38,096 nucleotides of DNA from Anaeromyxobacter terrae. GTDB lineage: Bacteria > Myxococcota > Myxococcia > Myxococcales > Anaeromyxobacteraceae. The translations under genes and the position numbers were made by a program. The notes under the pieces were generated by a model. It was not told where the DNA came from, did no database searches, and was given only the letters and a program-made list of their open reading frames with translations. Positions 2,329-26,285 of this stretch are shown here, piece by piece (within the stretch, counting starts at the first letter, position 1; each line of letters opens with the position of its first letter). The stretch lies in the NCBI RefSeq assembly GCF_022690685.1, contig NZ_JALCYY010000048.1, positions 1 through 38,096 of the forward strand. The letters are read 5' to 3'.

Positions 2329-2329
2329 G

Positions 2330-7861: not shown

Positions 7862-9245
<1,384 letters not shown>

Positions 9246-9261
9246 CGCCTCCCCTCGGGTG

Positions 9262-9287: not shown

Positions 9288-9379
9288 TCGCCTGCCGCCG
9301 CGGCCGTGCGCCCTCCGCGCGCCCGCGGCGGACGGGCGCCTTCCCCGCCCCCGCCCGCCCGCGGTAGGTTCCCGGCGCC

Positions 9380-11107
9380 ATGCCCGTCGGGACCTTCGCG
9401 GCAGCGGGCCGCACCGCCCTCCTCCTCCTCGCCGTGGCCGCCGTGGTCTCCGGCGTCGCGGGCGCGTACCTCCAGGCCGAGGAGGCGCACGCGGAGCGAC
9501 GGCTCGTCGAGGGCCGCGCGGGCGCGCTCGCCGAGGCGCTGGAGCGCTCCGTCACGGAGGCGATGGCCGAGCACCGGCCGGAGAGCATGGGCGCGATCCT
9601 CGCGGCGGTCTCGCGCACCCAGGGCGTGGCGGGCGCGGCGCTCGCCGGCCCCGACGGCCGGGTCCGCTTCGCGGCGGGCGAGACGCCCGCGCGGCTCGGC
9701 TTCGGTCCCGAGGCGCGCTGGACCGAGCGGCGCTTCGTCCTCTCGAAGCCCATCGGGAACGGCGCCACCTGCCGCGCGTGCCACGGCGCGGCGGACGTGA
9801 ACGGCGCGCTGCTCGTGGCCCTGGACACGACCGAGCTCGGGCCGCGGCTCGCCGCGTCCGCGCGCCGCATCTGGGCGCTCGTGGGCCTCACCTTCCTCGC
9901 CATCGGCATCGCGGTCGTCCTCGTGCTGCGCGCGGCGCGACGGGTCGCCGATCGCACCCAGCGGCTCGCCGAGGCGCTCGCCGCGGCGAACGCGGCGCGC
10001 GAGGCCCGGGCGGCCGACCTCGCGCGGCTCCAGGCGATCCTCGACTCGATGGCGGACGGCGTCCTCTTCATCGACGCGGACGACCGCGTCGCGCTCGTGA
10101 ACAAGGCCGGCCGGGTGCTGCGCAACCTCACCGGCGGGCCGGGCCGTCCGCTGCGCGACTGCCACCCGAAGGCCTCGCACTCGATGCTCGACCGCGTGAT
10201 GCGCTACCTCCGCGACGGCGACGACGCCGGCCCGGCGCACTCCATCATCAAGGAGCGCGAGGGCCGGTTCGAGACGACCTACGCGCCGGTGAAGGGCCCA
10301 GACGGCGCGTACCTCGGGACGGTCATGGTGATCCGCGACATCGCGGAGCGGCGGACGCTCGAGCGGCGGCTCCTCGACGCGGAGCGGCTGTCCGGGCTCG
10401 GGCAGATGTCCGCGCAGATCGCCCACGAGCTGCGGAACCCCCTGAACGCGATCGGCGGCGCGGCGCAGTACCTCAACCGGCGCTTCGAGGGGGACGCCGA
10501 GGTCGCCGAGTACGCCGGGCTCATCGGCGAGGAGGTGCAGCGGGTGAACCGCTTCGTCTCCGAGCTGCTCCAGGTCGCGCGCCCGGGCGAGCCGGAGCTC
10601 GCGCCGGTGTCGGTGAACCGGCTCCTGCGCGAGGCCGCCCAGAAGGTCGCGGTCGCGCGCGGGCTCCCGGCGGACGCGGTGCGGCTCGAGCTCGCCCCGG
10701 ATCTGCCCGTGCTCGACGTGGACGCGCCGATGATCACCGAGGCCCTCGTGAACCTGCTCCAGAACGCGCTCGAGGCGGGCGGCGTCGAGCCGGTCGAGCT
10801 CGCGAGCCGCTACGAGACCCAGGGCGGCGAGGGGACCATCGTGGTCGAGGTACGCGACCGCGGCTGCGGGATCCCCGCCGAGGAGCTCGACGAGGTGCTC
10901 CGGCCCTTCGTGACCACGAAGCCGACCGGCACCGGCCTCGGCCTCGTCGTCGTCTCGCGCGCGGTCGAGCAGCACCGCGCCCGCTTCGCGCTGTCCTCCC
11001 GCGAGGGCGGCGGCACGGTCGCCGCGATCCGGTTCCCCGTGCGCCGCGCCGCCGCGGCCGGGCTGGTCGCCCCCGCGGGCAGCCCCGCCGACCTGGAGGC
11101 GCCGTGA
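9380..11107 (+). CDS. Haem-binding-type sensor histidine kinase
   Basis: 575 residues. Membrane segments at about 10-31 and 170-192 enclose a periplasmic domain with a c-type haem attachment motif CRACH at residues 131-135. A coiled coil leads to a PAS domain (about 215-330) with a CHPxxxH signature (Cys261, His262, His267), resembling the C-terminal PAS region of DUF438 proteins. The kinase core follows: H-box with His349 in IAHELRNPLNAI, N-box NLLQNALEAGG, G-boxes DRGCGIP and GTGLGL. A redox, NO or nitrite signal at the periplasmic haem is plausible, but the ligand is unproven. The stop overlaps the response regulator start by 4 bases, so the two form one two-component system next to the nrfA-like genes. 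Confidence 0.88.
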   Translation: MPVGTFAAAGRTALLLLAVAAVVSGVAGAYLQAEEAHAERRLVEGRAGALAEALERSVTEAMAEHRPESMGAILAAVSRTQGVAGAALAGPDGRVRFAAGETPARLGFGPEARWTERRFVLSKPIGNGATCRACHGAADVNGALLVALDTTELGPRLAASARRIWALVGLTFLAIGIAVVLVLRAARRVADRTQRLAEALAAANAAREARAADLARLQAILDSMADGVLFIDADDRVALVNKAGRVLRNLTGGPGRPLRDCHPKASHSMLDRVMRYLRDGDDAGPAHSIIKEREGRFETTYAPVKGPDGAYLGTVMVIRDIAERRTLERRLLDAERLSGLGQMSAQIAHELRNPLNAIGGAAQYLNRRFEGDAEVAEYAGLIGEEVQRVNRFVSELLQVARPGEPELAPVSVNRLLREAAQKVAVARGLPADAVRLELAPDLPVLDVDAPMITEALVNLLQNALEAGGVEPVELASRYETQGGEGTIVVEVRDRGCGIPAEELDEVLRPFVTTKPTGTGLGLVVVSRAVEQHRARFALSSREGGGTVAAIRFPVRRAAAAGLVAPAGSPADLEAP

Positions 11108-12501
11108 GCGCCCCCGCCGCCTCGGAGGGCCTCGTCCTCGTCGTGGACGACGATCCCGGCACCCGCAAGGTCGCGAAGGCGAATCTCTCGCTCGAGGGCT
11201 TCGAGGTGCTCGTCGCCTCCTCCGGCGCCGAGGCGCTCGCGCGGCTCGACGAGTCGGATCCGCTCGCCGTCGTCTCGGATCTCAAGATGCCGGACCTCGA
11301 CGGCATCGCCCTCATGGATCGCGTGCACGCGATCCGCCCCTCGCTGCCGGTCGTGCTCGTCACCGCGCACGCGACGGTCGAGACGGCGGTCGAGGCGATG
11401 CGCAAGGGCGCGCTCCACTACCTCACGAAGCCCATCCGCTACGACGAGCTCGCGCTCGTGCTCCGCCACGCGGTCGCGCACGAGCGGCAGCGCCGCGACG
11501 TGGCGCGCCTGCGCGGCGAGCTCGAGCAGGCGGCCGGGTTCGAGGAGATCGTCGGGACCTCGCCGGCCATGCGCGAGGTCTTCTCGATGGTGGAGCAGGT
11601 CGCCGACGCCGACGCGACGGTGCTCCTGCGCGGCGAGACCGGCACCGGCAAGGAACTCGTCGCGCGCGCCATCCACCGCCGCTCGGCGCGCCGCGACCGC
11701 ACGTTCGTGGCGGTGAACTGCACCGCCATCCCGCGCGACCTCATGGAGAGCGAGTTCTTCGGGCACGAGAAGGGCGCGTTCACCGGGGCCGTCGCCCGGC
11801 GGATCGGGCGGTTCGAGCAGGCGCACGGCTCGACCCTGTTCCTCGACGAGGTCGGCGACCTCGATCTCGCCATCCAGGCGAAGCTCCTGCGGGTGCTTCA
11901 GGAGCAGGAGCTCACGCGCGTCGGCGCCCAGGATGCCATCCGCGTGGACGTCCGCATCGTGGCCGCGACGAACCGCGACCTCGAGGCGCTCGTGCGCGAG
12001 GGGCGCTTCCGCGACGACCTCTACTACCGCCTGAACGTCATCCCCATCCGCCTGCCCCCGCTGCGCGAGCGCACGGGGGACCTCCCCGCGCTCATGGAGC
12101 ACTTCCTCGGCTCGTTCGCGAAGCGCTACGGCCGCGGAGCGCCCCTGCCGCCGCCCGACGTCATCGCGGCGGCGCGCGCCTACCCCTGGCCCGGGAACGT
12201 CCGCGAGCTGCGCAACCTGTGCGAGCGCGCGGTGCTCATGGGGTGGGCCGCGATCGCGCCGATCCTCGGCGCGGGACCGCGCGCGGACGCGTTCGGGGCG
12301 GCGGCGCTCGTCGACCCGTCCCTGCCGCTCCTCGAGGCGAAGCAGCGGCTCGTCGAGCGGTTCGAGCGCGAGTACCTCACGCGGCTCCTGAAGGAGCACC
12401 GCGGGCGCGTCGGCGAGGTCGCGCGCGCCGCGGGGATCGCCGAGCGGAACCTGTACGAGAAGATGAAGGCGTACGGGCTCTCGCGCGACGACTACCGGTG
12501 A
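11104..12501 (+). CDS. NtrC-family sigma54-dependent response regulator
   Basis: 465 residues from a GTG in a GTGA overlap with the kinase gene. Receiver domain at 1-125 with acidic pocket Asp15-17, phospho-acceptor Asp59 in VVSDLKMPD, and a TKP lysine near residue 115. The AAA+ domain (about 150-385) has Walker A GETGTGKE, the sigma54-contact loop GAFTGA, Walker B TLFLDEVGDL, and the arginine-finger region RFRDDLYYRLNVIPI. A Fis-type helix-turn-helix closes the protein (GEVARAAGIAERNLYEKMKAYGL region, 440-462). It must activate RNA polymerase with sigma54; the only strong -24/-12 promoter I found in the window is ahead of nrfH at 22195, making that operon a natural target. Confidence 0.95.
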   Translation: MSAPAASEGLVLVVDDDPGTRKVAKANLSLEGFEVLVASSGAEALARLDESDPLAVVSDLKMPDLDGIALMDRVHAIRPSLPVVLVTAHATVETAVEAMRKGALHYLTKPIRYDELALVLRHAVAHERQRRDVARLRGELEQAAGFEEIVGTSPAMREVFSMVEQVADADATVLLRGETGTGKELVARAIHRRSARRDRTFVAVNCTAIPRDLMESEFFGHEKGAFTGAVARRIGRFEQAHGSTLFLDEVGDLDLAIQAKLLRVLQEQELTRVGAQDAIRVDVRIVAATNRDLEALVREGRFRDDLYYRLNVIPIRLPPLRERTGDLPALMEHFLGSFAKRYGRGAPLPPPDVIAAARAYPWPGNVRELRNLCERAVLMGWAAIAPILGAGPRADAFGAAALVDPSLPLLEAKQRLVERFEREYLTRLLKEHRGRVGEVARAAGIAERNLYEKMKAYGLSRDDYR

Positions 12502-12608
12502 GACCCGGCCGCCGGCCCGCCTCCCCGGCAAGCGTCCGTTTGCATCCCTCGCGGGCGTGCCCCGCATTGGCTCCGTCGCTCCGCCGGGGCGTGCTGCACA
12601 ACGGGGCG

Positions 12609-14171
12609 ATGACCGACCGGAAACCGAAGAGCCGCCGCGCCGCGATCGCCCTCGGCGTCGCCGCGCTGCTCGGCGCCGCCGCGACGCTCGCGCAGGCGCA
12701 GACCCAGGAGAAGGCCAAGGCCGCGAAGCCCGCCCAGGCCGCCCAGGCGCAGAAGCCCTCCGCCAAGGCGAAGAAGCCGGCCGCGAAGGCCGCGCCCGCC
12801 GCCGCGGCGGGTGGAAAGATCACCGACGAGACCGTCGATCCCGCCGTGTGGGGCAAGGAGTATCCGCTCCAGTACGAGACCTACAAGAAGACCGTCGACC
12901 AGGTCCGCACGAAGTACGGCGGCTCGGAGGCGCTGCCGCGCACGCCGGACGAGGCCGACCCGCGCTCGGTCGTGTCGCAGGAGAAGATCGAGGAGGACCC
13001 GCGGCTCAAGACGATGTGGGCGGGCTACGCCTTCAGCGTCGACTTCCGCGAGGAGCGCGGCCACGCGTACATGCTCGAGGACCAGACCTTCACGAAGCGT
13101 CAGGCGGTCGTGAAGCAGCCGGGCTCGTGCATGCAGTGCCACGGCTCGGTCTACGTCCCCTACAAGAAGCTCGGGAACGGCGACCTCGAGGCCGGGTTCC
13201 GCAAGATGAACGCGATGTCCTACATGGAGGCGCGCAAGCTCGTCGACCACCCGGTGGCGTGCATCGACTGCCACGACCCGGAGACGATGTCCCTCAGGGT
13301 CACGCGGCCCGGGTTCATCAACGGCATCCGCGCGCTCAAGGCGAAGCAGGGCGTCAAGGATTACGACGTGAACAAGCAGGCCTCGCAGAAGGAGATGCGC
13401 GCGTTCGTCTGCGGGCAGTGCCACGTCGAGTACTACTTCAAGGGCGACGACAAGCAGCTCACCTATCCCTGGTTCAACGGGATCAAGGTCGAAGACATCA
13501 TGTCGTACTACGACGAGATCAAGTTCAAGGACTGGGTGCACAAGACGACCGGCGCGCCCGCGCTCAAGGCCCAGCACCCGGAGTTCGAGATGTGGAACCA
13601 GGGCATCCACGCCCGGTCGGGCGTCACCTGCGTCGACTGCCACATGCCCGAGATCCAGTACAAGGGCGAGAAGATCACTGACCACCAGGTGAACAGCCCG
13701 CTGCTCAAGGTCGAGGCGTCCTGCACGAGGTGCCACGCGGGCGTCAAGCCGGACGAGCTCAAGGACCGGGTCATCGCGGAGCAGGACCGCTTCTACAAGG
13801 AGCGCAACATCGCCATGGATGCGCTCATGGATCTCATCGGCGACATCCAGAAGGCGCAGGGGGACGGCAAGGCGACCCCGGAGCAGCTCGACGCCGCGCG
13901 CTACCTCCAGCGGCGCGCGCAGTTCTACCTGGACTTCGTCGAGGCGGAGAACTCGACCGGCTTCCACGCGCCGCAGGAGGCGCTGCGGATCCTCGGCGAC
14001 TCGATCGACTACACGCGCCAGGGGCAGCTCGTGCTGCGCGACGCGACGTTCAAGCCGGACGTGAAGGTCGTGGTCGTCCCCACCGCGCAGCCCGGCCCGA
14101 GCCAGGCGCCCGGGACGCACCCGGCGACCGTGCCGGCGGCGCCGCAGAAGCCGCAGGAGAAGGCGAAGTAG
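12609..14171 (+). CDS. nrfA: NrfA-like pentahaem cytochrome c nitrite reductase, copy 1
   Basis: 520 residues. A cleavable signal (LAQAQ) is followed by about 40 residues of Ala/Lys/Pro linker, then the catalytic body. Five CxxCH motifs start at residues 174, 218, 268, 341 and 372; their spacing (44, 50, 73, 31) follows classical NrfA, in which the first site is usually CxxCK. Here the first is CMQCH, as in the CxxCH subclass of NrfA. Active-site landmarks are present: CGQCHVEYYF (catalytic Tyr) and QGIHARSGVTCVDCHMP (catalytic His). The expected reaction is six-electron reduction of nitrite to ammonium in the periplasm. No nrfH adjoins; the two-component genes lie 107 bases upstream. An extended upstream frame to 12219 is overlap with the regulator. 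Confidence 0.87.
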   Translation: MTDRKPKSRRAAIALGVAALLGAAATLAQAQTQEKAKAAKPAQAAQAQKPSAKAKKPAAKAAPAAAAGGKITDETVDPAVWGKEYPLQYETYKKTVDQVRTKYGGSEALPRTPDEADPRSVVSQEKIEEDPRLKTMWAGYAFSVDFREERGHAYMLEDQTFTKRQAVVKQPGSCMQCHGSVYVPYKKLGNGDLEAGFRKMNAMSYMEARKLVDHPVACIDCHDPETMSLRVTRPGFINGIRALKAKQGVKDYDVNKQASQKEMRAFVCGQCHVEYYFKGDDKQLTYPWFNGIKVEDIMSYYDEIKFKDWVHKTTGAPALKAQHPEFEMWNQGIHARSGVTCVDCHMPEIQYKGEKITDHQVNSPLLKVEASCTRCHAGVKPDELKDRVIAEQDRFYKERNIAMDALMDLIGDIQKAQGDGKATPEQLDAARYLQRRAQFYLDFVEAENSTGFHAPQEALRILGDSIDYTRQGQLVLRDATFKPDVKVVVVPTAQPGPSQAPGTHPATVPAAPQKPQEKAK

Positions 14172-14254: not shown

Positions 14255-16780
14255 CTACTGAGGGACGGGCAGCGGGAGGGTGTGGACCTTGTCGACCGCC
14301 TGGGCGCCGTTCACGCCGTGGCAGGAGAGGCACTGCTCCTTGCCGTCCGAGGTGTAGCGCGCGACGTGGAAGGCCGAGTAGGCCGTGCCGTGGCAGCCGG
14401 TGCACGCGGCGGTGAGCGCGGGCTTCGCCGGCTCGTCGGGCGAGTGGGCGGTGCTCGCCGCGTGGAGGATCGTGCCGGTCTCGTTCGCGATGGTGGCCGC
14501 CGCGTTCGAGGGGATCGACTCCAGTCGGTAGGTGCCCTCGAGGTGGCAGAGCGTGCAGCGGGCGAGATCGTTCGGGAACTCGCCCATGTCGCGGAACTTC
14601 GGGCCGCCGTAGGAGGCGAGCGGCTTCGTGAGCTCCGCGGGGCCGGTGCGGCCGCCGGTGTGGATGCGGTGGATGATCACCTTGAAGTGCAGGCTCCGCT
14701 CCTCGACGTCGTCGTAGGTGGCGGCGAGGTTCGTGTTCCCGGGCGCGTCCTTCGGCCGGCTCCGCCAGTCAGTCTTGTCGGGCGCGTGGCAGATGACGCA
14801 GTACGCGGTCTGGTTCCGGACCCCGCCGTGATACGAGAGCCGCAGGTGGCAGGCGTTGCACTTCTGGAGGTCGACGATCGTCCGCCGCGGCGCGGGCGCG
14901 CCGCTGCCGAGCGCGCCGGTGGACGTGTCCACCCACGCGAGCGCGTTGTCCGCGACCTCGGTCACCGTCTCGCCCGTGTACGGCCAGACGAGCCGCTTCG
15001 CCGCGTCGTCCCAGAACGGCGCCGTCGCGCCCGTCACGCCCACCGGCAGGTTCGAGCGCCGCGCCTCGATCCCGACGAGCCAGGTCCCATCCGATCCCTC
15101 CGGGATCTTGTCCGTGTCCGGGAAGGTGAAGGTGAAGCGGCCCTCCGCGTCGGAGGTCGGGACGGGCTTCGTCGGGTCGGCGGGATCTCCGACGACGATC
15201 TCGCTGAGCGGGAGGACCGACGTCCCGAGCGTGCGGAAATCGGGGGCCGCCGGGCCGGCGAGGTAGATCGTGAGCCGCGACACCGCGCGCGGCACGTTGC
15301 TCGCGGGGACGTTCCCGTCGCTCGCGGGGGCGGGGTTGGCGAGGTCGCGGATCGCGCCGTTGCGGTCCGACACCTTGAACACCACGGTCGGCGCGAGCCC
15401 GGGCGTGAGGTTCGTGACGGACACGATCTCGACGGTGGGCTTCGAGTAGCGGGCGTGCCGGTACGGCGGAACGTGCGCCTCCTTCATCGGGACGCGCACG
15501 TTCGGGTTCGCGGTGGTCGGGACGTGGCACTCGTTGCAGCGGGAGTCGTCCGCCTGTGGCCCCCCGGGGTGAGCCAGGTGGAAGACGTCGGGCGGCTTCG
15601 CCTCGAGGTCGGGCGCGACCGCCGGCTGGAACCAGACGTCGGGGTGGCACCCCTGGCAGGTCCGCCGGGAGATCTCGGTGTCGATCGCCGCGACCTGCGC
15701 CGCGTCGGTGGTGTGGCAGGCCTCGCAGCTCCGGTAGTCGCGAGGGAAGGTGATCCCCGCCGCGAGCATCTTCGCCGGCTGGCCGTTGTCGCTCCGGGTC
15801 GCGATCGCGCCGAAGACGCGCTCGCGCGAGAGCTCGCCGACGACCGCGAAGCGACGGCCGACGAGGGTCATGTCGGTGGGGAGCTTGTTCCGACCGGTGA
15901 GGAACGGGAGCGGCGGCTTCACGTCGCCGTAGGGCTGCGGCGCCGCGAGCGCGCTGCTCGAGACGTACAGCGTCGGCAGGGTCTTCCCGCGGTGAATCCG
16001 ATGAACGAGCCGCCCGAGCTCCAGCGGGTTCGGGTTCGTGTCGGGCGTCGCGTCCGCGCGCGCGGCGGGATCGACGGTCTGCCCGTCCGCGTGCTGGTAG
16101 GTGTGGCAGGTGACGCAGATCCGCGTGCCGGTGCGGGAGCCGCCGTGCGCGCGCAGCGTGCCGTGGCACGCCGCGCAGGCGGCGTCGACGACGAGCTCGC
16201 GCCCGCTGAGCGGCCCGTGGTTCGGCACGAAGTCGATCGTCGCGGTGGTGAGCGCGGTCCCGGGGACGCCGCGCAGGAACACGCCGACGCGCAGCGTCTC
16301 CGCGGGATCGTAGCCGGCGGGGATAACGGTCGCGAACGTGTACGTGTACACGCCCCCGCCCTGCTCCGCCCACGTCCCCTCGGTCTCGGCGCCCGGCTGC
16401 CGCGTGCCGAGCAGCACCGCACCGTCCGGCGTGCCCGGCCCGGCGACGGGGAGGCTCACGAGCGTCTCCGCCCCGGTGAGCACGAGGCTCCTCCACGCCG
16501 GGAGGCCGGTCACGGGCTCCTTGCCGAGCGACGCGAGGGTCCACGCCGGCTGGAGCGCGCGCGCGGCCTCGAGGCCCAGCGGGCGGCCGTCGCGCGACGC
16601 CCGGAACGTCACGGCCACGCGCTGCGCCGCGTCCACCGTCGCGGCGGCGATCTCGATCCTCGGCCCCTTGGGCGGGGGCGCACCGGCTGCCGGACCGAGA
16701 CGCGGCGCCTGCTGGCACGCGCCGAGGAGCGCGAACGTCACCGCCGCGGCGAATGCGCTCTTCGTGAACCGGCGACTCAT
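14255..16780 (-). CDS. OmcA/MtrC-family decahaem c-type cytochrome lipoprotein
   Basis: 841 residues from an ATG at 16780, preceded by a GGGAGG Shine-Dalgarno. A lipoprotein signal ends in LLGAC. Beta-rich regions alternate with two pentahaem clusters. The ten CxxCH motifs are, in order, CAACH (from residue 202), CVTCH, CEACH, CQGCH, CNECH, CNACH, CVICH, CTLCH, CTGCH and CLSCH (from residue 817). This is the OmcA/MtrC architecture of cell-surface terminal reductases for metals, flavins or electrodes. No MtrA or MtrB homologue adjoins, so its outer-membrane partner must be elsewhere, or could be the unusual haem-bearing barrel encoded divergently at 17629 (inference). Confidence 0.92.
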   Translation of the reverse strand: MSRRFTKSAFAAAVTFALLGACQQAPRLGPAAGAPPPKGPRIEIAAATVDAAQRVAVTFRASRDGRPLGLEAARALQPAWTLASLGKEPVTGLPAWRSLVLTGAETLVSLPVAGPGTPDGAVLLGTRQPGAETEGTWAEQGGGVYTYTFATVIPAGYDPAETLRVGVFLRGVPGTALTTATIDFVPNHGPLSGRELVVDAACAACHGTLRAHGGSRTGTRICVTCHTYQHADGQTVDPAARADATPDTNPNPLELGRLVHRIHRGKTLPTLYVSSSALAAPQPYGDVKPPLPFLTGRNKLPTDMTLVGRRFAVVGELSRERVFGAIATRSDNGQPAKMLAAGITFPRDYRSCEACHTTDAAQVAAIDTEISRRTCQGCHPDVWFQPAVAPDLEAKPPDVFHLAHPGGPQADDSRCNECHVPTTANPNVRVPMKEAHVPPYRHARYSKPTVEIVSVTNLTPGLAPTVVFKVSDRNGAIRDLANPAPASDGNVPASNVPRAVSRLTIYLAGPAAPDFRTLGTSVLPLSEIVVGDPADPTKPVPTSDAEGRFTFTFPDTDKIPEGSDGTWLVGIEARRSNLPVGVTGATAPFWDDAAKRLVWPYTGETVTEVADNALAWVDTSTGALGSGAPAPRRTIVDLQKCNACHLRLSYHGGVRNQTAYCVICHAPDKTDWRSRPKDAPGNTNLAATYDDVEERSLHFKVIIHRIHTGGRTGPAELTKPLASYGGPKFRDMGEFPNDLARCTLCHLEGTYRLESIPSNAAATIANETGTILHAASTAHSPDEPAKPALTAACTGCHGTAYSAFHVARYTSDGKEQCLSCHGVNGAQAVDKVHTLPLPVPQ

Positions 16781-17186: not shown

Positions 17187-17636
17187 GTGACGCGCCCCGT
17201 CGTCATGGCGCTCGCCGCCGTCGCGCTCGCCGCCTGCGCTCCTGCACCGGGCGTCGGCGCGCCGCAGCCGATCCAGGTCCCCACGGGCCCCGCGGAGCAC
17301 TTCTCCACGCTCGCCCAGAACGTCCTCGTCCCCCGCTGCGCCACCGCCTCCTGCCACGCCGGCACGTCCCCGCCGGCCTACCCCCCGCTCGACGAGGATC
17401 TCGCCTACGGCGCGCTCGTGGGCGGCGCGGGCCGCGGCGTGCAGTCGCAGCAGGCACCTCTGAACCTCGTCGAGCCCTTCGATCCCGCGAGCAGCTACCT
17501 CGTCATGAAGCTGCGCGGCACCGCCGGTGACGTCGGCGGGGTCGCGAGCCCGATGCCGATCGGCGACGCCGCGCTCGACGAGGCCGACATCCAGGCGATC
17601 GAGGCGTGGATCGCGAACGGAGCGCCGAATGACTAG
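17187..17636 (+). CDS. Monohaem c-type lipoprotein with CX4CH motif
   Basis: 149 residues from a GTG at 17187; ATG at 17205 is an alternative. A lipoprotein signal ends in ALAAC (Cys17). The haem motif is CATASCH (residues 51-57), the wider CX4CH form, and a candidate distal Met lies in ASPMPIG near residue 125, so a class I-like fold is plausible. The C-terminal segment SSYLVMKLRGT...IQAIEAWIANGAP is typical of planctomycete- and deltaproteobacterial-type cytochrome domains. It probably sits in the outer membrane or periplasm as an electron carrier. The gene ends in an 8-base overlap with the beta-barrel gene, so the products are probably made together. Confidence 0.75.
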   Translation: MTRPVVMALAAVALAACAPAPGVGAPQPIQVPTGPAEHFSTLAQNVLVPRCATASCHAGTSPPAYPPLDEDLAYGALVGGAGRGVQSQQAPLNLVEPFDPASSYLVMKLRGTAGDVGGVASPMPIGDAALDEADIQAIEAWIANGAPND

Positions 17637-18807
17637 CCGCAGCGCACCCCGGCGGATCGCGGCCGCCGCCGCGCTCGCCCTCACCGCCGCGCTGCTCGCC
17701 GGGGCGCGGCCCGCGCGCGCCGGCGGCGACAACGTGATCGTCTCCGGGTCCGTCTACGTCGACTACTGGGGCATCGAGCGGCGCGACATCGCCGCGCGCA
17801 CGCCGCGGAGCATCTCGCCGGACGCGTCGCTGAAGGTGCAGGTCGACGTCCACGACGACCTGGCCTTCTCCGCCAAGGCCTGCTTCAGCTGTCACGGCAT
17901 CGACCTCGAGCACGCCTACCTCGACTACACGCCGAAGACCTGGTTCAACGTCCAGGTCGGGCGCATCGCGGTGCCGTTCGGTGAATACGCGAACCGGGTC
18001 GATCAGTCCGGACACAAGACCGCGTCCGCGCCGCTCATCTACGACATGGGGCGGATGGCGTACGGCGAGAAGAACGCGATGAACCTCGGCGTCATCCCCC
18101 AGCCCTACTCCGACACCGGCGCCCTGCTGTACGGGATCACCTGGCTCGGCGAGAGCCTGCAGGTCTGGTACGGGCTCTACGGCGTCGCGGGGATGCGCGG
18201 CTCGAACGACCTCGACTTCACGTCGCTGCGCACCGTCTACTACACCGACAACAACGACCAGCCCGCGGGCGGCGCCCGGGTCGCCGTCACCTGGGCCTCC
18301 TCCGGCAAGGGGTTCTTCGGCGACGTGAGCGTCGGCGCGTCCGCCACCGGCGGCCGCTACGACCGCGCGGCGAAGCTCGACTACGCCGCGGTCGGAGCGG
18401 ATGCGTCCATGAAGCTCGGCCCGGTCACGTTCCGCGGCGAGTACGCGGCGCGGCGCACCGACGTCGACACCTCGGCGAACGGCTACAAGTGGGCGATCGT
18501 CGACCCCTTCGTCGTCAAGGAAGGGTGGTACGGCGAGATCGAGCACCCGCTCGGCAAGCACGTGGACATGGTCTACCGCTACGACGAGCTCCGTCGTAAA
18601 GGCGTACCGCTCCCCGGCTCCATCCTCACGCCGGACAGCCTCCTCGTGCGCTACACCGCCGGACTCGTCCTGACGCCGGCGCAGGCGGTGTACGTGAAGC
18701 TCGCGTGGGAGTACTGGAGTGACGAGACGATGATCGGCACGCCCCCGGGCACGACGCCGTTCCAGGACTTCCACTCCATCCACCTCGGGTTCGGAGGAGC
18801 CTTCTGA
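17629..18807 (+). CDS. Outer-membrane beta-barrel (porin-like) with embedded CxxCH
   Basis: 392 residues. A signal peptide ends near ARPARA, residue 27. The remainder is alternating aromatic/polar beta strands with Gly/Asp turns ending in an aromatic C-terminal strand (IHLGFGGAF), the outer-membrane insertion signature. Porin-type landmarks include FNVQVGRIAVPFGEY and LIYDMGRMAYGE. Unusually, a haem motif CFSCH (residues 85-89) lies in the turn after the second strand, probably on the periplasmic side. Cyc2-type fusions place their haem directly after the signal peptide, which does not match. Neighbours encode two small haem proteins, suggesting an electron conduit. Haem attachment is predicted, not shown. 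Confidence 0.72.
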   Translation: MTSRSAPRRIAAAAALALTAALLAGARPARAGGDNVIVSGSVYVDYWGIERRDIAARTPRSISPDASLKVQVDVHDDLAFSAKACFSCHGIDLEHAYLDYTPKTWFNVQVGRIAVPFGEYANRVDQSGHKTASAPLIYDMGRMAYGEKNAMNLGVIPQPYSDTGALLYGITWLGESLQVWYGLYGVAGMRGSNDLDFTSLRTVYYTDNNDQPAGGARVAVTWASSGKGFFGDVSVGASATGGRYDRAAKLDYAAVGADASMKLGPVTFRGEYAARRTDVDTSANGYKWAIVDPFVVKEGWYGEIEHPLGKHVDMVYRYDELRRKGVPLPGSILTPDSLLVRYTAGLVLTPAQAVYVKLAWEYWSDETMIGTPPGTTPFQDFHSIHLGFGGAF

Positions 18808-19139
18808 TGTCCGTCACGTTCGCCGCCGCCGCCGTCCTCGGGCTCGTGCTGCAGGCCGAGCCGGAGAAGGCGCCTCCCGACCCGCGCGACTTCGGTCCGG
18901 GCACCATCGACGTCTCGTCGTATCCGGAGGAGCAGGTGCGCCGGTACGAGGTGCTCATCTCGAAGTGCAACAAGTGTCACCCGGCCGCGCGCGCCGTGAA
19001 CTCGCACTTCAGCTCGCAGCAGTGGAAGCGCTACATGAAGAAGATGCTCAGGCGCCCCAACTCCGGGATCAACGAGGAGCAGGCGCAGCGCATCTACGAG
19101 TTCCTGAAGTTCCGCGCCGAGAAGGAGGGCCTGGGCTAG
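18807..19139 (+). CDS. Small monohaem cytochrome c
   Basis: 110 residues starting in a TGATG overlap with the barrel gene. A hydrophobic N-terminus (residues 3-17) should serve as signal or anchor. One CNKCH motif lies near residue 53, and the following helices (FSSQQWKRYMKKMLRRPNSGI, then EAQRIYEFLKF) resemble the cytochrome c-551-like domains found in reaction-centre and sensor proteins. It probably carries electrons in the periplasm between the inner membrane and the beta-barrel. The C-terminus is basic. Confidence 0.8.
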   Translation: MSVTFAAAAVLGLVLQAEPEKAPPDPRDFGPGTIDVSSYPEEQVRRYEVLISKCNKCHPAARAVNSHFSSQQWKRYMKKMLRRPNSGINEEQAQRIYEFLKFRAEKEGLG

Positions 19140-19151
19140 CCCCGGACCGCC

Positions 19152-21056
19152 ATGTTCTCCAGGTTCACCGATCGCACGAAGAGCTCGCTCCGCTTACGCC
19201 TCCTCGTCGCGACGCTCGTCCTCGTCGCCCTCGCGCTCGCCATCGCCGCCGTCGCGTTCGAGCGCGTCGCGCGCTCCGTGATCGTCGACGCGGTCCACTC
19301 GCACCTCTCCGCCCGCGCCGAGGAGGTCCAGGCCGCGGTCGTCCGATTCCAGCGCGAGCGCGCGCTCGCGATCCGCAACTGGGCCGAGGCGGAGGCGATG
19401 CAGATGACCATCGACTCCGGCGACCCGAAGTTCGCCGAGGACTACCTCCGCCGTACGATCCAGGACCAGGGCGGCACCATCTCCGCCGCGGCGCTCCTCG
19501 ACATGGACGGCGCCGTCATCGCGGCCGTCCGGGAGGGCGCCGCGGGCGAGCGCCGCGGGCTGCCGGTCGTGACCCTGCGCGGCGTGGTGCTCGGTGACGC
19601 GCCGGTGAAGGCCGCGCTGGAGGGCTCCGCCGAGCTCGGCGACGGCGTCGCCGCGGGGACCGCGCCGCTCTCGCGGCTCGACCCGACCGAGGGCGGCGCG
19701 CTCGGGGTGATGGTCGCTGCGCCCGTGAAGGACTTCGCGGGCGACCTCGTGGGCCTCGTGGTGGGCGTCCTCTCGCCGCACGGGCTCTCGCGCCTCCTCG
19801 GCGGCATCGCCGGCGAGGACGGCCTCTACCAGCCCATCGTCGCAGACGAGGGGCTCACGCTCGTCGTCTCCGTCCCGAGCGCCGACGCCCGCAAGGTGCG
19901 CGCGCTCGCGGAGGCCGCCTCGGCCGCGCCCGGCGCGCTCGAGCGCGTCGCGCTCGCCGGCACCGAGCCGGTGCTCTCCGTCCGGACCGCGCCCGACGCG
20001 GGCGTCCCCGGCTGGCGCACGCTCATGGCGGTCCACGAGGCCGACGCGTACGGCCGGCTGTACTGGCTCCGCGCCATCCTCGGCGTCCTCTTCCTGATCG
20101 TCCTCGCCGTCGCCGGCGTCGCGAGCATCGGCGCGATCCGCCAGGCATCCCGGCCGCTCACGGACATCACCCAGTCCATGACGCAGGTGGCGAGCGGCGA
20201 CCTGTCGACGCGCGTCCCCGAGACCTACAGGGACGAGCTCGGCCACCTCGTCCACTCGTTCAACGTGATGGTGAGCGAGGTCGAGCGGTCGCGCGACGAG
20301 CTGCAGCGCACCGAGGCGCTCCGGCGCGAGGTGGAGATCGCGCACCGGATCCAGACCGCGATCCTCCCCGTGGCGCCGTCGCTCGCGGGGTACGAGGTGG
20401 CGGCGCGCATGAAGCCGGCGGACGACGTCGGCGGCGACCTCTACGACCTGCTCCCGTTCGACGACACGTTCTGGGTGCTCGTCGGCGACGTCTCCGGCCA
20501 CGGCATCAACTCCGGGCTGGTGATGATGATGGCGCAGGCGGCGGCCTACGCGGCGATCGCCGAGAACCCGGGCGGCTCGCCGAAGAACGTCATCGCCGCC
20601 GTGAACCGCGTCGTGCACGAGAACGTCCGCCGCCGGATGCAGCGCGACGACTACCTGACGCTCATGGCCGCGCGCCACCTGGGCGACGGGCGCTTCGTCG
20701 CCGCCGGCGCCCACCAGCCGATCTTCCTCTCCCGCGGGAGCGGCAAGGTCGACGTCATCGAGCCCGCCGGCCCGTGGTGCGGGCTCGGGCCCAGCGTCAA
20801 GCCGCGCGAGTACGAGTTCGAGGTCCACCCCGGGGAGATGCTCTGCCTCATCACGGACGGCGTCGTCGAGGCGCCGGACGCGCGGGGCGATCTCTTCGGC
20901 GAGGACCGCCTCGCCCAGATGCTCTCCGAGCCGTCCGTCAGCTCCGCGTCCGCCTCCCAGGCGCTCGCCGCGATCTTCTCCAGGGTCGAGGCGTTCGCCG
21001 CCACGCAGGCGGACGACATGACCGCAGTCGTCCTGAGGCGCCAGCACCATGCCTGA
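19152..21056 (+). CDS. Membrane SpoIIE/RsbU-type serine phosphatase with Cache-like sensor and HAMP
   Basis: 634 residues. TM1 at about 14-38, an extracytoplasmic sensor of about 255 residues resembling a double Cache fold, TM2 at about 300-322, HAMP at about 323-375 (RPLTDITQSMTQVASGDLSTRVP), a short coiled coil, then a PP2C-type phosphatase domain (about 400-630). Metal-binding motifs are intact: DDVGGDLYD, GDVSGHGINSG and DDMTAVVL. Such enzymes dephosphorylate STAS proteins in partner-switch circuits in response to an outside signal. It lies 12 bases after the cytochrome gene and overlaps the next gene by 8 bases (ATGCCTGA), so electron-conduit and signalling genes are apparently co-transcribed. 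Confidence 0.9.
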   Translation: MFSRFTDRTKSSLRLRLLVATLVLVALALAIAAVAFERVARSVIVDAVHSHLSARAEEVQAAVVRFQRERALAIRNWAEAEAMQMTIDSGDPKFAEDYLRRTIQDQGGTISAAALLDMDGAVIAAVREGAAGERRGLPVVTLRGVVLGDAPVKAALEGSAELGDGVAAGTAPLSRLDPTEGGALGVMVAAPVKDFAGDLVGLVVGVLSPHGLSRLLGGIAGEDGLYQPIVADEGLTLVVSVPSADARKVRALAEAASAAPGALERVALAGTEPVLSVRTAPDAGVPGWRTLMAVHEADAYGRLYWLRAILGVLFLIVLAVAGVASIGAIRQASRPLTDITQSMTQVASGDLSTRVPETYRDELGHLVHSFNVMVSEVERSRDELQRTEALRREVEIAHRIQTAILPVAPSLAGYEVAARMKPADDVGGDLYDLLPFDDTFWVLVGDVSGHGINSGLVMMMAQAAAYAAIAENPGGSPKNVIAAVNRVVHENVRRRMQRDDYLTLMAARHLGDGRFVAAGAHQPIFLSRGSGKVDVIEPAGPWCGLGPSVKPREYEFEVHPGEMLCLITDGVVEAPDARGDLFGEDRLAQMLSEPSVSSASASQALAAIFSRVEAFAATQADDMTAVVLRRQHHA

Positions 21057-21573
21057 GCCGAAGCCCGATCCGCGCCAGCCCATCTACCTCATGCTGCGGA
21101 TGAAGCCGCCCTGGGTCTTCATCGACGAGATCCGGCGCTTCGTCGAGTCGTTCTGCGCCTGCGCCTGCGACGTGGCGGTGAACCGTGAGTCGCAGCTCGC
21201 GCTCGCGGTGCACGAGCTCATGCAGAACGCGGTGCCGTACTCGCACGACGAGGAGGTCGACCTCGTCCTCGAGGTGGATCCCGACGCCGATCGCGTCGAG
21301 GTGGCGGTGACCAACCGCTGCACCGAGGCGGAGTTCCAGTCGCTCAAGGAGCGCATCGCGCGCATGAACCGCGAGCCCGACGCGCTCCGGCACTACCTCG
21401 CCGAGATGAGCACGTCGCCGGCCACCGTGCGCGGCGGCCTGGGCCTCGCGCGCGTCCGCTTCGAGTGCCAGCTCGAGCTCACCCTGAGCCGCTCGGGTGG
21501 CCGCGTCACCGTCCACGCTTCCGGCGCGCTTCGTGCGCCGGCCCTGAAGGTTCCCGGAGGAGCCCATGCCTGA
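21049..21573 (+). CDS. RsbW-like HATPase, predicted anti-sigma/switch kinase
   Basis: 174 residues. An HATPase_c-type domain has an N-box-like segment LALAVHELMQNAVPYS near residue 55, an Asp-rich strand, and a late glycine motif RGGLGLARVRFE near residue 130. The domain resembles the slr1658-type regulators encoded beside SpoIIE phosphatases and STAS-like proteins. Its expected role is to phosphorylate the STAS partner and bind a downstream target. It lacks the cysteine/zinc features of anti-sigma factors and has a CACAC cluster near residue 40 of unknown meaning. It overlaps both neighbours by the same 8 bases, ATGCCTGA. Confidence 0.78.
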   Translation: MPEPKPDPRQPIYLMLRMKPPWVFIDEIRRFVESFCACACDVAVNRESQLALAVHELMQNAVPYSHDEEVDLVLEVDPDADRVEVAVTNRCTEAEFQSLKERIARMNREPDALRHYLAEMSTSPATVRGGLGLARVRFECQLELTLSRSGGRVTVHASGALRAPALKVPGGAHA

Positions 21574-21958
21574 GTTGCCCGTCCCGACGAATCCCCTGCA
21601 GGTCGCGGACGACAAGTACTCCGCCGTGCTCGCGAACGACGTGGAGGGTCCACGCGTCGTGTTCCGCGGCACGATCAGCACCGTCAACCCGGCGGTGATC
21701 CTGAACCCGTTCGTCGACGCGGTGCACGGAGAGCTCGCGAAGCTCGGGCGGAGGCGGATCCGGGTGGACCTGCGCGAGCTCGAGTTCTGCAACTCCTCGG
21801 GCTTCAAGGCGTTCATCCACTGGATCGAGCGGATCGCCTCGCTGCCGGAGGCGCAGCGCTACACGCTCCACTTCCTCTCGAACCCGGTCCGCAAGTGGCA
21901 GCGCACGAGCCTGCTCGCGCTCTCCTGCTACGGCGTGAACAGCGTCTCGATCGAGTAG
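21566..21958 (+). CDS. STAS-like antagonist protein of the partner switch
   Basis: 130 residues. The core strand-helix segment RIRVDLRELEFCNSSGFKAF matches the STAS/anti-sigma antagonist phosphorylation loop (D-L-x-x-L-x-F-x-x-S-S-G), with the phospho-acceptor Ser near residue 77. The sequence is closer to slr1659-type regulators than to classical SpoIIAA. It is the substrate expected for both the preceding ATPase (kinase) and the SpoIIE phosphatase. No sigma factor or other output gene is visible here, so the final target is unknown. A hairpin follows the stop. Confidence 0.75.
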   Translation: MPELPVPTNPLQVADDKYSAVLANDVEGPRVVFRGTISTVNPAVILNPFVDAVHGELAKLGRRRIRVDLRELEFCNSSGFKAFIHWIERIASLPEAQRYTLHFLSNPVRKWQRTSLLALSCYGVNSVSIE

Positions 21959-22213: not shown

Positions 22214-22244
22214 TGAAGGGCCAACTCGCTCGCGAGGCCCTTCA
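22214..22244 (+). promoter_or_regulatory. Hairpin covering the nrfH ribosome-binding site
   Basis: A perfect 9-bp inverted repeat, TGAAGGGCC (22214-22222) and GGCCCTTCA (22236-22244), has a 13-base loop; its right arm ends on the A of the nrfH start codon. The only Shine-Dalgarno-like sequence (CGAGG) is at the base of the right arm. If the transcript includes both arms, translation initiation would be occluded. If transcription starts at 22221, most of the left arm is missing, so the DNA palindrome might instead bind a protein. Confidence 0.4.
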
Positions 22245-22696
22245 TGCCCATCGGAAGCTCGCTCCTCTCGTGGCCCCTCCTCCTCGTCGCCGGCACGCTC
22301 GGCGTCGCAGCGGGCGTCGGCGGCTACGCCTTCGCGTACGCGAAGGGGACGTCGTACCTCGGCAACGACCCGGCCACGTGCGCCAACTGCCACGTGATGT
22401 CCGGGCAGTACGAAGCCTGGCAGCAGTCGTCGCACCACGCCTTCGCCACCTGCAACGACTGCCACACCCCCGCCGCGCCCGTCGGCAAGTACCTGACCAA
22501 GGCCGAGAACGGTTACCACCACTCGATGGCGTTCACGATCGGTGGGTTCCCCGACGTGATCCGCGCGCGGGCGGGGAGCCGCGAGGTCGTCGAGGGCCAG
22601 TGCCGGCACTGCCACGCCGCCGTGGTCGACGCGATGACCGCGGGCGGCGAGGTCTCCTGCATCCGCTGCCACGCCTCCGTCGGACACCTCCGCTGA
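22244..22696 (+). CDS. nrfH: NrfH-type tetrahaem quinol dehydrogenase
   Basis: 150 residues. A single N-terminal membrane helix (about 8-32) is followed by four CxxCH motifs at residues 46, 70, 120 and 139. The first is CANCHVM, the CxxCHxM arrangement of NrfH in which Met ligates haem 1. NapC/NirT/NrfH proteins oxidise menaquinol and pass electrons to periplasmic partners; NrfH anchors and feeds NrfA. The next gene, 32 bases downstream, encodes an NrfA-like cytochrome. Confidence 0.93.
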   Translation: MPIGSSLLSWPLLLVAGTLGVAAGVGGYAFAYAKGTSYLGNDPATCANCHVMSGQYEAWQQSSHHAFATCNDCHTPAAPVGKYLTKAENGYHHSMAFTIGGFPDVIRARAGSREVVEGQCRHCHAAVVDAMTAGGEVSCIRCHASVGHLR

Positions 22697-22728
22697 ATCG
22701 CCTCACGTCACTCAAGGAGAACACGCCA

Positions 22729-24192
22729 ATGACCCCCGAAACCGCCCCTAAGAAGCGCGGGCTCCTCCTCGCCCTCGTCGCGGGCGCCTTCGCGCTCGCC
22801 GCCGTGCTCGCCGCCGCCCTCCTCGTGAACGTCGCCGAGAAGAAGAGCGAGGCGAGGAACCCGACCGTGCGCGTGGTCGAGCTCACCGACGACACCGAGG
22901 ATCCGGCCGTGTGGGGCAAGAACTTCCCGGCCGAGTACGACCTCTACAAGCGGACCACGGACATGGTCCGCACGAAGCACGGCGGCTCGGAGGCGATCCC
23001 CCACACGCCGACGGCGCAGGACCCGCGCACCGTGACGTCGCAGTCCAAGACCGACGCGGACCCGCGGCTCAAGACGATGTGGGCGGGCTACGCCTTCGCG
23101 GCCGACTTCCGCGAGGAGCGCGGCCACGCCTACACCCTCGACGACCAGATCTTCACGCAGCGCCAGGTGGTCGCGAAGCAGCCCGGCACCTGCGGTCAGT
23201 GCCACGCCTCCGTCTACGTCCCGATGAAGAAGCTCGGGAACGGCGACATCTTCAAGGGCTTCGAGGCGCTCAACAAGATGCCGTACTCGGAGGCGAAGCA
23301 GCACTTCAAGCACCCCGTCTCCTGCATCGACTGCCACGACTCGCAGACGATGGCGCTCCGGGTGACGCGCCCGGGCTTCATCGAGGGCATCCGCGCGTTC
23401 AAGGCCTCGCAGGGCGTGCAGAACTACGACCCAAACACGATGGCGACGCGCCAGGAGATGCGCGCCTACGTCTGCGGGCAGTGCCACGTCGAGTACTACT
23501 TCAAGGGACCCGAGAAGCGGCTCACCTTCCCCTGGTCGAAGGGCATGAAGGCCGACCAGATCGTGGCGTACTACGACGAGGTCGGGTTCCGCGACTGGAC
23601 GCACAAGGAGACCGGCGCGCCGACGCTCAAGGCGCAGCACCCCGAGTTCGAGATGTGGAACCAGGGCATCCACGCCCGCTCCGGCGTCGCCTGCGCCGAC
23701 TGCCACATGCCCTACATGCGCGTCGGCGGCACCAAGGTCTCGGACCACTGGGTCCGCAGCCCGGTCCTGAACCTGAACCGCGCCTGCCAGGGCTGCCACA
23801 AGTGGCCGGAGGAGGAGCTCAAGGCGCGGGTCGAGGCGATCCAGGACAAGCATCTGGAGCTCCGCGAGCAGGCGTTCGACGCGCTCGTCGCGCTCATCGG
23901 CGACCTCAAGGCGGCGAAGGAGGCCGGCAAGACCGACGCCGAGCTCGAGAAGGCGCGCTTCCTCCAGCGGCGCGCGCAGTTCCTCTTCGACTTCGTCGAG
24001 GCGGAGAACTCGACCGGCTTCCACGCGCCGCAGGAGGCCGCCCGCGTGCTCTTCGAGTCGATCGACGCCTCGCGCCAGGGCCAGCTCACGCTGCGCGATC
24101 CGTCGTTCAAGCCGACCGTGGCGGTGGTGACCATACCGCCGCCGCCGCCGGCCCCGGCGCCCGGCATCCAGCCCGCCGCGCTGACGAAGTAG
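22729..24192 (+). CDS. nrfA: NrfA-like pentahaem cytochrome c nitrite reductase, copy 2
   Basis: 487 residues from an ATG with a strong AAGGAGA Shine-Dalgarno. The N-terminal helix (about 11-35) lacks a clear AxA cleavage site and may stay as an anchor. Five CxxCH motifs begin at residues 155, 199, 249, 322 and 353; the spacing (44, 50, 73, 31) is identical to copy 1. The catalytic position is CGQCH rather than CxxCK. CGQCHVEYYF and QGIHARSGVACADCHMP supply the active-site Tyr and His. Copies 1 and 2 are closely similar throughout the catalytic body but differ in N-termini and tails. It follows nrfH, so this is the likely membrane-bound NrfHA complex; copy 1 lacks its own nrfH. Confidence 0.92.
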   Translation: MTPETAPKKRGLLLALVAGAFALAAVLAAALLVNVAEKKSEARNPTVRVVELTDDTEDPAVWGKNFPAEYDLYKRTTDMVRTKHGGSEAIPHTPTAQDPRTVTSQSKTDADPRLKTMWAGYAFAADFREERGHAYTLDDQIFTQRQVVAKQPGTCGQCHASVYVPMKKLGNGDIFKGFEALNKMPYSEAKQHFKHPVSCIDCHDSQTMALRVTRPGFIEGIRAFKASQGVQNYDPNTMATRQEMRAYVCGQCHVEYYFKGPEKRLTFPWSKGMKADQIVAYYDEVGFRDWTHKETGAPTLKAQHPEFEMWNQGIHARSGVACADCHMPYMRVGGTKVSDHWVRSPVLNLNRACQGCHKWPEEELKARVEAIQDKHLELREQAFDALVALIGDLKAAKEAGKTDAELEKARFLQRRAQFLFDFVEAENSTGFHAPQEAARVLFESIDASRQGQLTLRDPSFKPTVAVVTIPPPPPAPAPGIQPAALTK

Positions 24193-24197
24193 CGCCG

Positions 24198-24307
24198 CGG
24201 GGGCCTCCGGCCGCGTCCCCCTGTCCGCGCCGCGCCGGCCCGCAGCCTCCCGCGAGGCGGCGGGTCGGCCGCCGGAGGCCCCCGTCTCTCCCCAGCCGCC
24301 GGAGGCC
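24198..24307 (+). promoter_or_regulatory. Long hairpin with alternative pairing before the NapD-like gene
   Basis: A 14-bp perfect stem pairs 24198-24211 with 24271-24284, with a 59-base loop that holds a smaller hairpin. The 13-mer GCCGCCGGAGGCC occurs in the right arm (24268-24280) and again at 24295-24307, where it contains the GGAGG Shine-Dalgarno of the next gene. The left arm could thus pair with either copy. It may act as a partial terminator, an mRNA-end stabiliser or a translational switch between nrfA and the next gene. Confidence 0.4.
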
Positions 24308-24310
24308 GTC

Positions 24311-24718
24311 GTGTCGAGACCGCAGACGCCCCTCGCCCGCCGCGAGCTGCTCGAGGCCTCCGCTGCCGCGTCCGCCCTCGCAGGGCTCGGCGCCTCCGCC
24401 GAGGCGCTCGGAGCCGTCGGGCGCCGAGGCCCTCCGGGACGCGCGGGGGTCGTCGCCGGGGTCGTCATCGAGACGGTCCCAGGCGCGGCGCCGCGCGTGG
24501 CGGCGCGGCTGCTGCACGAGCCCGGCCTCGTGCTCCAGGGCGGCGACGGCGACCGCCGCCTCGCGGCCGTGTTCACCGGCGCGGAGGGCGCGGCGCTCGA
24601 GGCGCTCGCCGAGCGGCTCGTGCGCTCGCACGAGGACGTCCTGGGCGTCTTCCCCACCTACGTCGCGAACCCGGTCGACGGATCCGGCGATCCCGGATCG
24701 GGCGGCGCCCGCCCGTGA
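24311..24718 (+). CDS. NapD-like chaperone domain protein with Tat-like N-terminus
   Basis: 135 residues from a GTG with GGAGG five bases upstream. Residues about 45-115 fit the small ferredoxin-like NapD fold: a first strand VAGVVIETVPG, helix VAARLLHEPGLVL, strand RRLAAVFTG, helix LEALAERLVRSHEDV, strand LGVFPTYVA. NapD proteins bind the Tat signal peptide of the nitrate reductase NapA. Oddly, residues 10-30 here (ARRELLEASAAASALAGLG) themselves look like a twin-arginine signal, although it is atypical in having Leu-Leu-Glu after the RR. No napA lies in the window. The identification rests on pattern recognition only. Confidence 0.55.
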   Translation: MSRPQTPLARRELLEASAAASALAGLGASAEALGAVGRRGPPGRAGVVAGVVIETVPGAAPRVAARLLHEPGLVLQGGDGDRRLAAVFTGAEGAALEALAERLVRSHEDVLGVFPTYVANPVDGSGDPGSGGARP

Positions 24719-24908
24719 CGCTCCGTCACGCGCCGCGGTGCGTCGCGGCCCACTCGCCCGGAGCGGCGGCGCTCGCCTGGCCCCGGGCACTTGGGGTTCC
24801 CCGCGCGAGGATCCGCGCCGCTTCCCCCGCGGTGGCAGCATCCGCACGCCGCCGCCCCGCTGCACCCGCCGTCACGACGCCGGCGGCGACCCTCACCCTG
24901 GAGGCATC

Positions 24909-26285
24909 ATGAAGCTGACGACACGCATCGCGCTCGCCGCGGCACTCGCGCTCCTCGCCGGCCCGGCGGCCGCGCAGAAGAAACCGGTCGCCCCGGCCGG
25001 CAAGCCCGCCCCGACGAAGGCTGCCCCGAAAGCCGCCGCGAAGCCGGCCGCCAGCGGCGCGTGCGTCACCTGCCACGCGAAGGTGAACCCGAGCATCGTG
25101 AAGGACTGGGAGCTGTCCCGGCACTCCAAGGTCGAGGTCGGCTGCGTCGACTGCCACGGCTCGGCCCACAAGACGAAGGACGACTTCGCGAACGCGACGA
25201 TGCCGACGCCCGACACCTGCGGCCAGTGCCACGACGCCCAGGTCGCGCAGTTCAAGAAGGGGAAGCACGCGTTCTCCTGGGCGGCGGTGAAGGCGATGCC
25301 GACGTTCCACTACCAGCCGGTCGCGATCCGCGAGGGGCTGAAGGGCTGCGGCGGGTGCCACAAGCTCGGGCTCAAGACCCCCGAGGAGCAGGCGGAGCTG
25401 CGCAAGGTGTCCGGTCCCTACGGGAACGCCTCCTGCGACGCGTGCCACACGCGCCACCTGTTCTCCAAGGCGGAGGCGCGCCGACCGGAGGCCTGCCAGA
25501 CCTGCCACATGGGCTTCGATCACCCGCAGTGGGAGATGTACAGCGGCTCGAAGCACGGCGTGCGCAACGCGCTCAGGCAGACGGGCGCGATCCCCGAGTA
25601 CTCGGCCGCGCCGACCTGCCAGGACTGCCACATGAAGGAGGGGAACCACGAGGTCCGCACCGCGTGGGGCTTCCTCGCCGTCCGGCTGCCCTTCCCCGAG
25701 GATGACCCGCAGTGGAAGGCCGATCGCGTCACGATCCTGCAGGGGCTCGGCGTGCTCGACCCCTCGGGCAACCCCACCGGCCGGCTCGACGTCGTGAAGG
25801 CCGCCGACGTGGCGCGGCTCACGCAGGAGGCGTGGCAGGCGGAGCGCACGAAGATGCTGAAGACCTGCAACCAGTGCCACTCCGGCGAGTTCGCGAAGGT
25901 CCAGCTCCAGCAGTCGGACGGGATGATTCGCGACGCGGACCACGCCATGGCCGAGGCGATCCGCACCATCGCCGGGCTGTACCAGGACGGCATCCTGCCG
26001 AAGCCGAAGAACTACGCGTTCCCGTTCCCGGACCTGCTCACGTTCCACGACGCGCCGACGCCCGTCGAGCAGAAGCTCTTCGTGATGTTCCTCGAGCACC
26101 GCATGCGCGCGTTCCAGGGCGCGTTCCACGCGAACCCGGACTACGCGAACTGGTACGGCTGGAGCGAGATGGCGCGCGATCTCGTCGAGATCAAGGCGGA
26201 GGCGGCGACGCTCCGGCGCGAGCACGGGGCGGCCGCGCCCCAGGCGCCCGCACCGGCGGCGAAGCCCACGCCGCCGAAGAAGTGA
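24909..26285 (+). CDS. Octahaem cytochrome c of the hydroxylamine oxidoreductase (HAO) family
   Basis: 458 residues from an ATG with GGAGG. A cleavable signal (GPAAAQ) is followed by about 28 residues of Lys/Ala/Pro linker. Eight CxxCH motifs start at residues 52, 79, 104, 147, 176, 196, 237 and 320, with the long gap before haem 8 that HAO-family proteins show. Segments such as WELSRHSKVEVGCVDCH and KHAFSWAAVKAMPTFHYQ fit the family. HAO-type proteins oxidise hydroxylamine or hydrazine, or in anaerobes reduce nitrite or hydroxylamine to ammonium; the downstream position after nrfHA favours the reductive role. Whether the Tyr crosslink of true HAO is present cannot be judged here. Confidence 0.82.
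   Translation: MKLTTRIALAAALALLAGPAAAQKKPVAPAGKPAPTKAAPKAAAKPAASGACVTCHAKVNPSIVKDWELSRHSKVEVGCVDCHGSAHKTKDDFANATMPTPDTCGQCHDAQVAQFKKGKHAFSWAAVKAMPTFHYQPVAIREGLKGCGGCHKLGLKTPEEQAELRKVSGPYGNASCDACHTRHLFSKAEARRPEACQTCHMGFDHPQWEMYSGSKHGVRNALRQTGAIPEYSAAPTCQDCHMKEGNHEVRTAWGFLAVRLPFPEDDPQWKADRVTILQGLGVLDPSGNPTGRLDVVKAADVARLTQEAWQAERTKMLKTCNQCHSGEFAKVQLQQSDGMIRDADHAMAEAIRTIAGLYQDGILPKPKNYAFPFPDLLTFHDAPTPVEQKLFVMFLEHRMRAFQGAFHANPDYANWYGWSEMARDLVEIKAEAATLRREHGAAAPQAPAPAAKPTPPKK

Follow-up and report, generated by a model that had tools for sequence, protein, structure and literature searches.

Six adjacent plus-strand genes at 17187-21958 of the window, which here means the whole 38,096-nt stretch of Anaeromyxobacter terrae DNA that was analysed (NZ_JALCYY010000048.1), join a putative haem-bearing outer-membrane barrel and two putative cytochromes to a protein-phosphorylation switch, in the order lipoprotein, barrel, monohaem cytochrome, SpoIIE phosphatase, HATPase and STAS-like protein. 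The reading that I favour, at roughly even confidence, takes the locus for a small outer-membrane electron conduit to which a SiaABC-like partner switch is dedicated. If true, this would tie the hardware of extracellular electron transfer to a named protein-phosphorylation switch, and the way in which metal-reducing bacteria perceive electron acceptors at a surface could be tested directly in culturable Anaeromyxobacter.

Features of the window, by position and strand:

14255..16780, minus: OmcA/MtrC-family decahaem lipoprotein, divergent neighbour outside the operon, probable partner
17187..17636, plus: lipoprotein cytochrome (lipoC), predicted outer-membrane; GTG start, lipobox LAAC, Cys17
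17337-17357, plus: lipoC haem motif CATASCH, of the form CX4CH (C51-H57)
17629..18807, plus: barrel with internal CXXCH; ATG start, signal peptide, C-terminus ...GGAF
17881..17895, plus: barrel CXXCH, CFSCH (C85-H89), beta3-beta4 hairpin
18046..18048, plus: codon of barrel Met140, candidate distal haem ligand, loop 115-160
18807..19139, plus: monohaem, a class I-like small cytochrome c; CNKCH at 18966-18980
19152..21056, plus: sensor phosphatase with TM helix, periplasmic dCache-like domain, TM helix, HAMP and SpoIIE PPM domain
19269..20069, plus: periplasmic sensor domain of the SpoIIE protein, confined to barrel-bearing genomes
21049..21573, plus: HATPase switch kinase (slr1658/SiaB/RsbW-like); N-box HELxQNA, Glu56
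21566..21958, plus: STAS-like antagonist (slr1659-like); predicted phosphosite Ser77 in NSSGFK

Conservation of the six-gene order

The first-pass annotation of this DNA had described six co-directional genes separated by overlaps or a 12-base gap, and all six were present as described, with successive junctions of -8, -1, +12, -8 and -8 nt. A scan of this GC-rich DNA for sigma-70 promoters and terminators found none. That annotation had staked its proposal on the order being kept in relatives, and the complete order turned out to be intact in 11 other Anaeromyxobacteraceae genomes, where every junction falls within -14 to +14 nt and protein identities are about 41-95%. The recurrence of both order and tight spacing in 11 more genomes argues against a chance array. 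Of the 24 family genomes, 14 gave a strong barrel match, among them all nine members of the genus, and the carriers recovered by the genome-contig scan include Anaeromyxobacter soli, oryzae, oryzisoli and strain PSR-1.

Three further genomes carry the operon in split or rearranged form. In G032, it is interrupted by a contig end, and both halves are consistent with the six-gene order. G022 is rearranged and keeps two blocks, lipoprotein-barrel-(monohaem) and monohaem-SpoIIE-HATPase-STAS, each of which adjoins a decahaem gene. In G084, which lies outside the family, lipoprotein-barrel-monohaem closes one contig and SpoIIE-STAS-HATPase opens another, and the two contig ends have 138 identical bases in common. 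This arrangement fits a single locus, although a repeat could also give the 138-bp overlap. The shared segment (end of L045, start of L100) is flanked by the inverted repeat AGTGCTCTGCCCGGGGTGTACTGAT, and may be a small repeat located between monohaem and SpoIIE.

That the genes are together only by chance and were inherited as such within one family would suit the fact that most intact copies come from one family. Tight junctions were nevertheless kept at strongly diverged identity, and the association was retained both in the rearranged G022 and outside the family in G084, so that this explanation is largely refuted and appears very improbable.

The predicted haem module and its neighbours

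No credible family match was found in Pfam or NCBIfam for lipoC, barrel or monohaem, and their assignment rests on motifs, alignments and models. The AlphaFold2 model of the barrel has 16 strands (pLDDT 82.8, pTM 0.81) and matches OprO/OprP and general porins in Foldseek, which predicts a 16-strand outer-membrane porin. In this model, strand 3 ends with the CXXCH, which lies in the tight beta3-beta4 hairpin, and the strand alternation of the predicted topology would place this hairpin on the extracellular half. C85, C88, H89, G90 and M140 were invariant in all 29 aligned sequences, and the invariant CXXCH makes the barrel a putative c-type cytochrome. M140 is located in the long loop 115-160 and is a candidate axial ligand for a haem that may sit in the lumen. 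Barrel relatives without CXXCH exist at L149 and L150, which suggests that the haem site is particular to this barrel subfamily.

The two small proteins are likewise putative c-type cytochromes with invariant or nearly invariant motifs. The CX4CH of lipoC was kept in 19 of 20 aligned sequences and is replaced by a plain CXXCH in the relatives at L085 and L149, which together support a real haem site; a Met-Pro downstream of the motif is kept in nearly all relatives. In monohaem, the family alignment shows a conserved CXXCH and a conserved Met within a KKM/KRM motif, and the gene accompanies the barrel at most loci.

The barrel resembles known conduits in part only. With MtrCAB, PioAB and Pcc, the locus has in common an outer-membrane barrel, cytochromes and an OmcA/MtrC decahaem neighbour, whereas here the barrel itself bears the CXXCH and no multihaem wire runs through it; membership of MtrB/PioB was rejected, as there was no PF11854 match at E<=1. 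In Cyc2, by definition, a 16-strand barrel is fused to a cytochrome domain at the N-terminus that contains CXXCH and AXPXFAR[QK][TY] (PMC8406198); common to Cyc2 and the present barrel are the 16 strands, one c-type haem motif and a length of about 400 aa. In contrast to that N-terminal domain, the CXXCH here occupies the beta3-beta4 hairpin (residues 85-89), with two and a half strands preceding it, and AXPXFAR[QK][TY] is absent, so Cyc2 was rejected as well. What sets this barrel family apart from MtrB and Cyc2 is a haem motif of its own, carried in a hairpin, and it occurs in genomes without MtrB: no MtrB/PioB (PF11854) barrel was found in the nine genus genomes. Other porin-cytochrome clusters have been reported in A. 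dehalogenans (PMC4245776), and the haem barrel therefore need not be the sole route.

The divergent neighbour at 14255..16780 belongs to the OmcA/MtrC decahaem family (TIGR03507, 298 bits against a cutoff of 209.3; 10 CXXCH). Of 13 informative family genomes, 8 have such a gene next to the operon (the window and 7 of 12 others), in placements that vary between divergent, upstream co-directional and downstream. At L149, from another Myxococcota class, a Qrc-like quinone oxidoreductase and a four-CXXCH cytochrome are followed by a porin without CXXCH, lipoC, an OmcA/MtrC decahaem with collagen-like repeats, and monohaem (1972-13655). This looks like a quinone-to-surface electron route, which supports a conduit role for the haem module, and the cluster is possibly a complete electron-export operon.

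Under the favoured conduit reading, the porin-like barrel would hold a single c-type haem, set in the wall or in the lumen, and the lipid-anchored cytochrome and the periplasmic monohaem cytochrome would complete a trans-outer-membrane haem module. Electrons may then move between periplasm and cell surface through this module, and in many strains an OmcA/MtrC-type decahaem cytochrome probably delivers or accepts them. Against this reading, the operon has only three haems and no MtrA-like wire, three Anaeromyxobacter genomes (L034-L036) keep it without a decahaem neighbour, and the dCache sensor described below bears neither a haem nor a redox motif.

Few haems, and multihaem cytochromes missing at some loci, favour the explanation that comes next after the conduit, which is possible but clearly less probable: barrel and cytochromes would mainly be a sensor, in which the haem at the outer membrane probes oxygen, minerals or the redox state outside the cell, while the periplasmic cytochrome or the barrel touches the inner-membrane phosphatase or kinase. 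A precedent is found in Geobacter, where the monohaem outer-membrane cytochrome OmcF is needed for the transcription of other outer-membrane cytochromes (PMC6971198), although neither a barrel nor a partner switch is reported alongside OmcF of Geobacter sulfurreducens in that work. The decahaem neighbours and the layout of L149, however, look respiratory.

Several further haem and sensor genes lie nearby. Downstream, NrfH/NrfA and an octahaem cytochrome (22244-26285) were rejected as candidate operon members, since STAS is followed by a gap of 285 nt and several family genomes lack the adjacency. On either side of the region lies an NrfA-type nitrite reductase (12606-14171 and within 22244-26285), and the second is accompanied by NrfH and by a multihaem cytochrome that distantly resembles hydrazine dehydrogenase. 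The wider neighbourhood also contains a histidine kinase gene (9380-11104), and a long sensor gene upstream at L036:12810-16049 looks similar.

The sensor phosphatase and its partner switch

That cytochrome barrel and partner switch belong together, as the first-pass annotation had supposed, is supported by the distribution of the sensor. Used alone as a query, the sensor domain of the SpoIIE protein matched 15 of 147 class genomes, and no genome among these lacks the barrel; the 15 comprise G084 and the full set of 14 barrel-bearing family genomes, and the 10 family genomes that lack the barrel gave no match. The carriers are related and represent few lineages, so that these counts are not independent events. 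A HATPase search gave strong matches in the same set of genomes. The exclusive occurrence of the sensor points to a switch dedicated to this haem module.

Two marks of a partner switch were found, namely intact PPM motifs and a GHKL kinase with the N-box Glu and Asn. Pfam recognised SpoIIE (1.1e-36, 127 bits), HAMP (1.1e-14) and HATPase_c_2 (9e-7, above cutoff), while the STAS_2 match of the last protein was weak (8e-4, below cutoff). The PPM metal-binding motifs DVGGD, GDVSGHG, TDG and DDMT are intact and conserved, and the nearest curated model for the phosphatase is SiaA. In the kinase, H55, E56 and N60 of the N-box and GLGLAR are invariant, and no DxGxG G1 box was found. Ser77 of the STAS protein is invariant in 11 sequences, and its NSSGFK peptide could be aligned by eye with the SiaC T68 peptide LYLNTSSIK (PMC7647112), which points to Ser77 as the predicted phosphosite.

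SiaABC(D) of Pseudomonas aeruginosa is a close parallel, having in common a phosphatase with periplasmic sensor, HAMP and PPM domains, a switch kinase and a small phosphoprotein (here a putative one) in one operon, the invariant kinase N-box Glu, and the Ser at the position of SiaC T68. Here, however, there is no SiaD cyclase and the switch is joined to haem proteins; the kinase falls below the SiaB model cut-off, the STAS protein has no SiaC match, and both are nearer to the slr1658/slr1659 superfamily regulators. Those gave the best curated matches (HATPase to slr1658 at 3e-6, STAS to slr1659 at 2.8e-6; NCBIfam NF047703/NF047705), yet at 27-28 bits against cut-offs of 100 they are far below the threshold. 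No credible sequence relative of either protein was found in the PDB with the HATPase and STAS profiles.

The sensor domain folds as a dCache between two TM helices (AlphaFold2 pLDDT 87.5) and its model resembles PctA, Tlp3 and DctB (Foldseek E about 1e-8 to 1e-9), while the Pfam dCache_1 match was below cutoff. The family alignment of the domain held no haem motif and no conserved Cys or His, and direct haem sensing by the phosphatase was rejected for want of such a motif. The overall reading of the first-pass annotation stood in part: conserved order, exclusive co-occurrence and novelty held up (it knew of no system that unites a conduit and a partner switch in one operon, and none was found described in the open-access literature), but the idea that the phosphatase reads redox state directly was not supported. 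Under the conduit reading, a module-linked periplasmic signal, either a small ligand or a protein contact, may instead alter SpoIIE phosphatase activity through the dCache domain. SpoIIE would remove phosphate from STAS, probably at Ser77, the HATPase would rephosphorylate it, and the free switch partner would act on an unlinked target.

Domains of the dCache type usually bind small molecules, which favours a third explanation, namely that switch and conduit are merely co-expressed, and that a SiaABC-like switch with a ligand of its own governs attachment or c-di-GMP when cells encounter a mineral surface. SiaABCD provides a precedent for this (PMC7647112). Against it, the operon lacks a diguanylate cyclase, the sensor was never seen without the barrel across 147 genomes, and other barrels recur with different phosphorylation partners; I consider it unlikely, and rank it below the sensor explanation.

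Ser/Thr kinases beside barrel relatives

A new observation is that barrel relatives without the SpoIIE switch usually adjoin a transmembrane Ser/Thr kinase, found within ~3 kb at 14 of 20 such loci. Kinase adjacency was first suspected to be background, but the overall density (19 kinases in 296 kb) exceeds the value of about 1 per 53-87 kb in such genomes. Coupling of the barrel to protein phosphorylation appears to have arisen repeatedly, and the kinase neighbours count in favour of the conduit reading with its switch. Partner types cluster by clade on the barrel tree (8 changes against 17.4 when shuffled) and kinase loci fall mostly into three related groups, so that independent events are few, perhaps four.

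That three barrel groups are repeatedly linked to phosphorylation sensors with periplasmic domains speaks for the sensor explanation, as do the AgmX/TonB-like kinase tails (weak matches), which could reach outer-membrane proteins. Generalised to the phylum, a class of haem-barrel signalling is conceivable, though I hold it only tentatively and think it rather improbable, in which a porin-wall c-type haem senses extracellular redox and its state is passed via a small cytochrome to interchangeable inner-membrane phosphorylation sensors, which would be the SpoIIE switch in some cases and Ser/Thr kinases bearing FGE, PEGA or AgmX/TonB-like periplasmic tails in others. A phosphatase in one barrel group and kinases in others amount to a natural experiment on trans-envelope signalling.

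The kinases beside the barrels are transmembrane proteins with FGE, PEGA or AgmX tails. A kinase-FGE gene is convergent to the barrel in six Myxococcaceae-like loci (L049-L054), and at L046 a kinase-PEGA gene (10531-13062) sits between barrel and monohaem. Kinases abut or adjoin the cluster at L081:7235-9151, L085:7109-9547, L146:2113-3675, L147:9544-11469 and L148:7438-9522, most of them with AgmX/TonB-like periplasmic tails (weak matches). At L074 and L075 the kinases lie further downstream of the barrel, and at L074-L076 an AgmX-like tail domain is encoded upstream of it, on a gene truncated where the contig begins.
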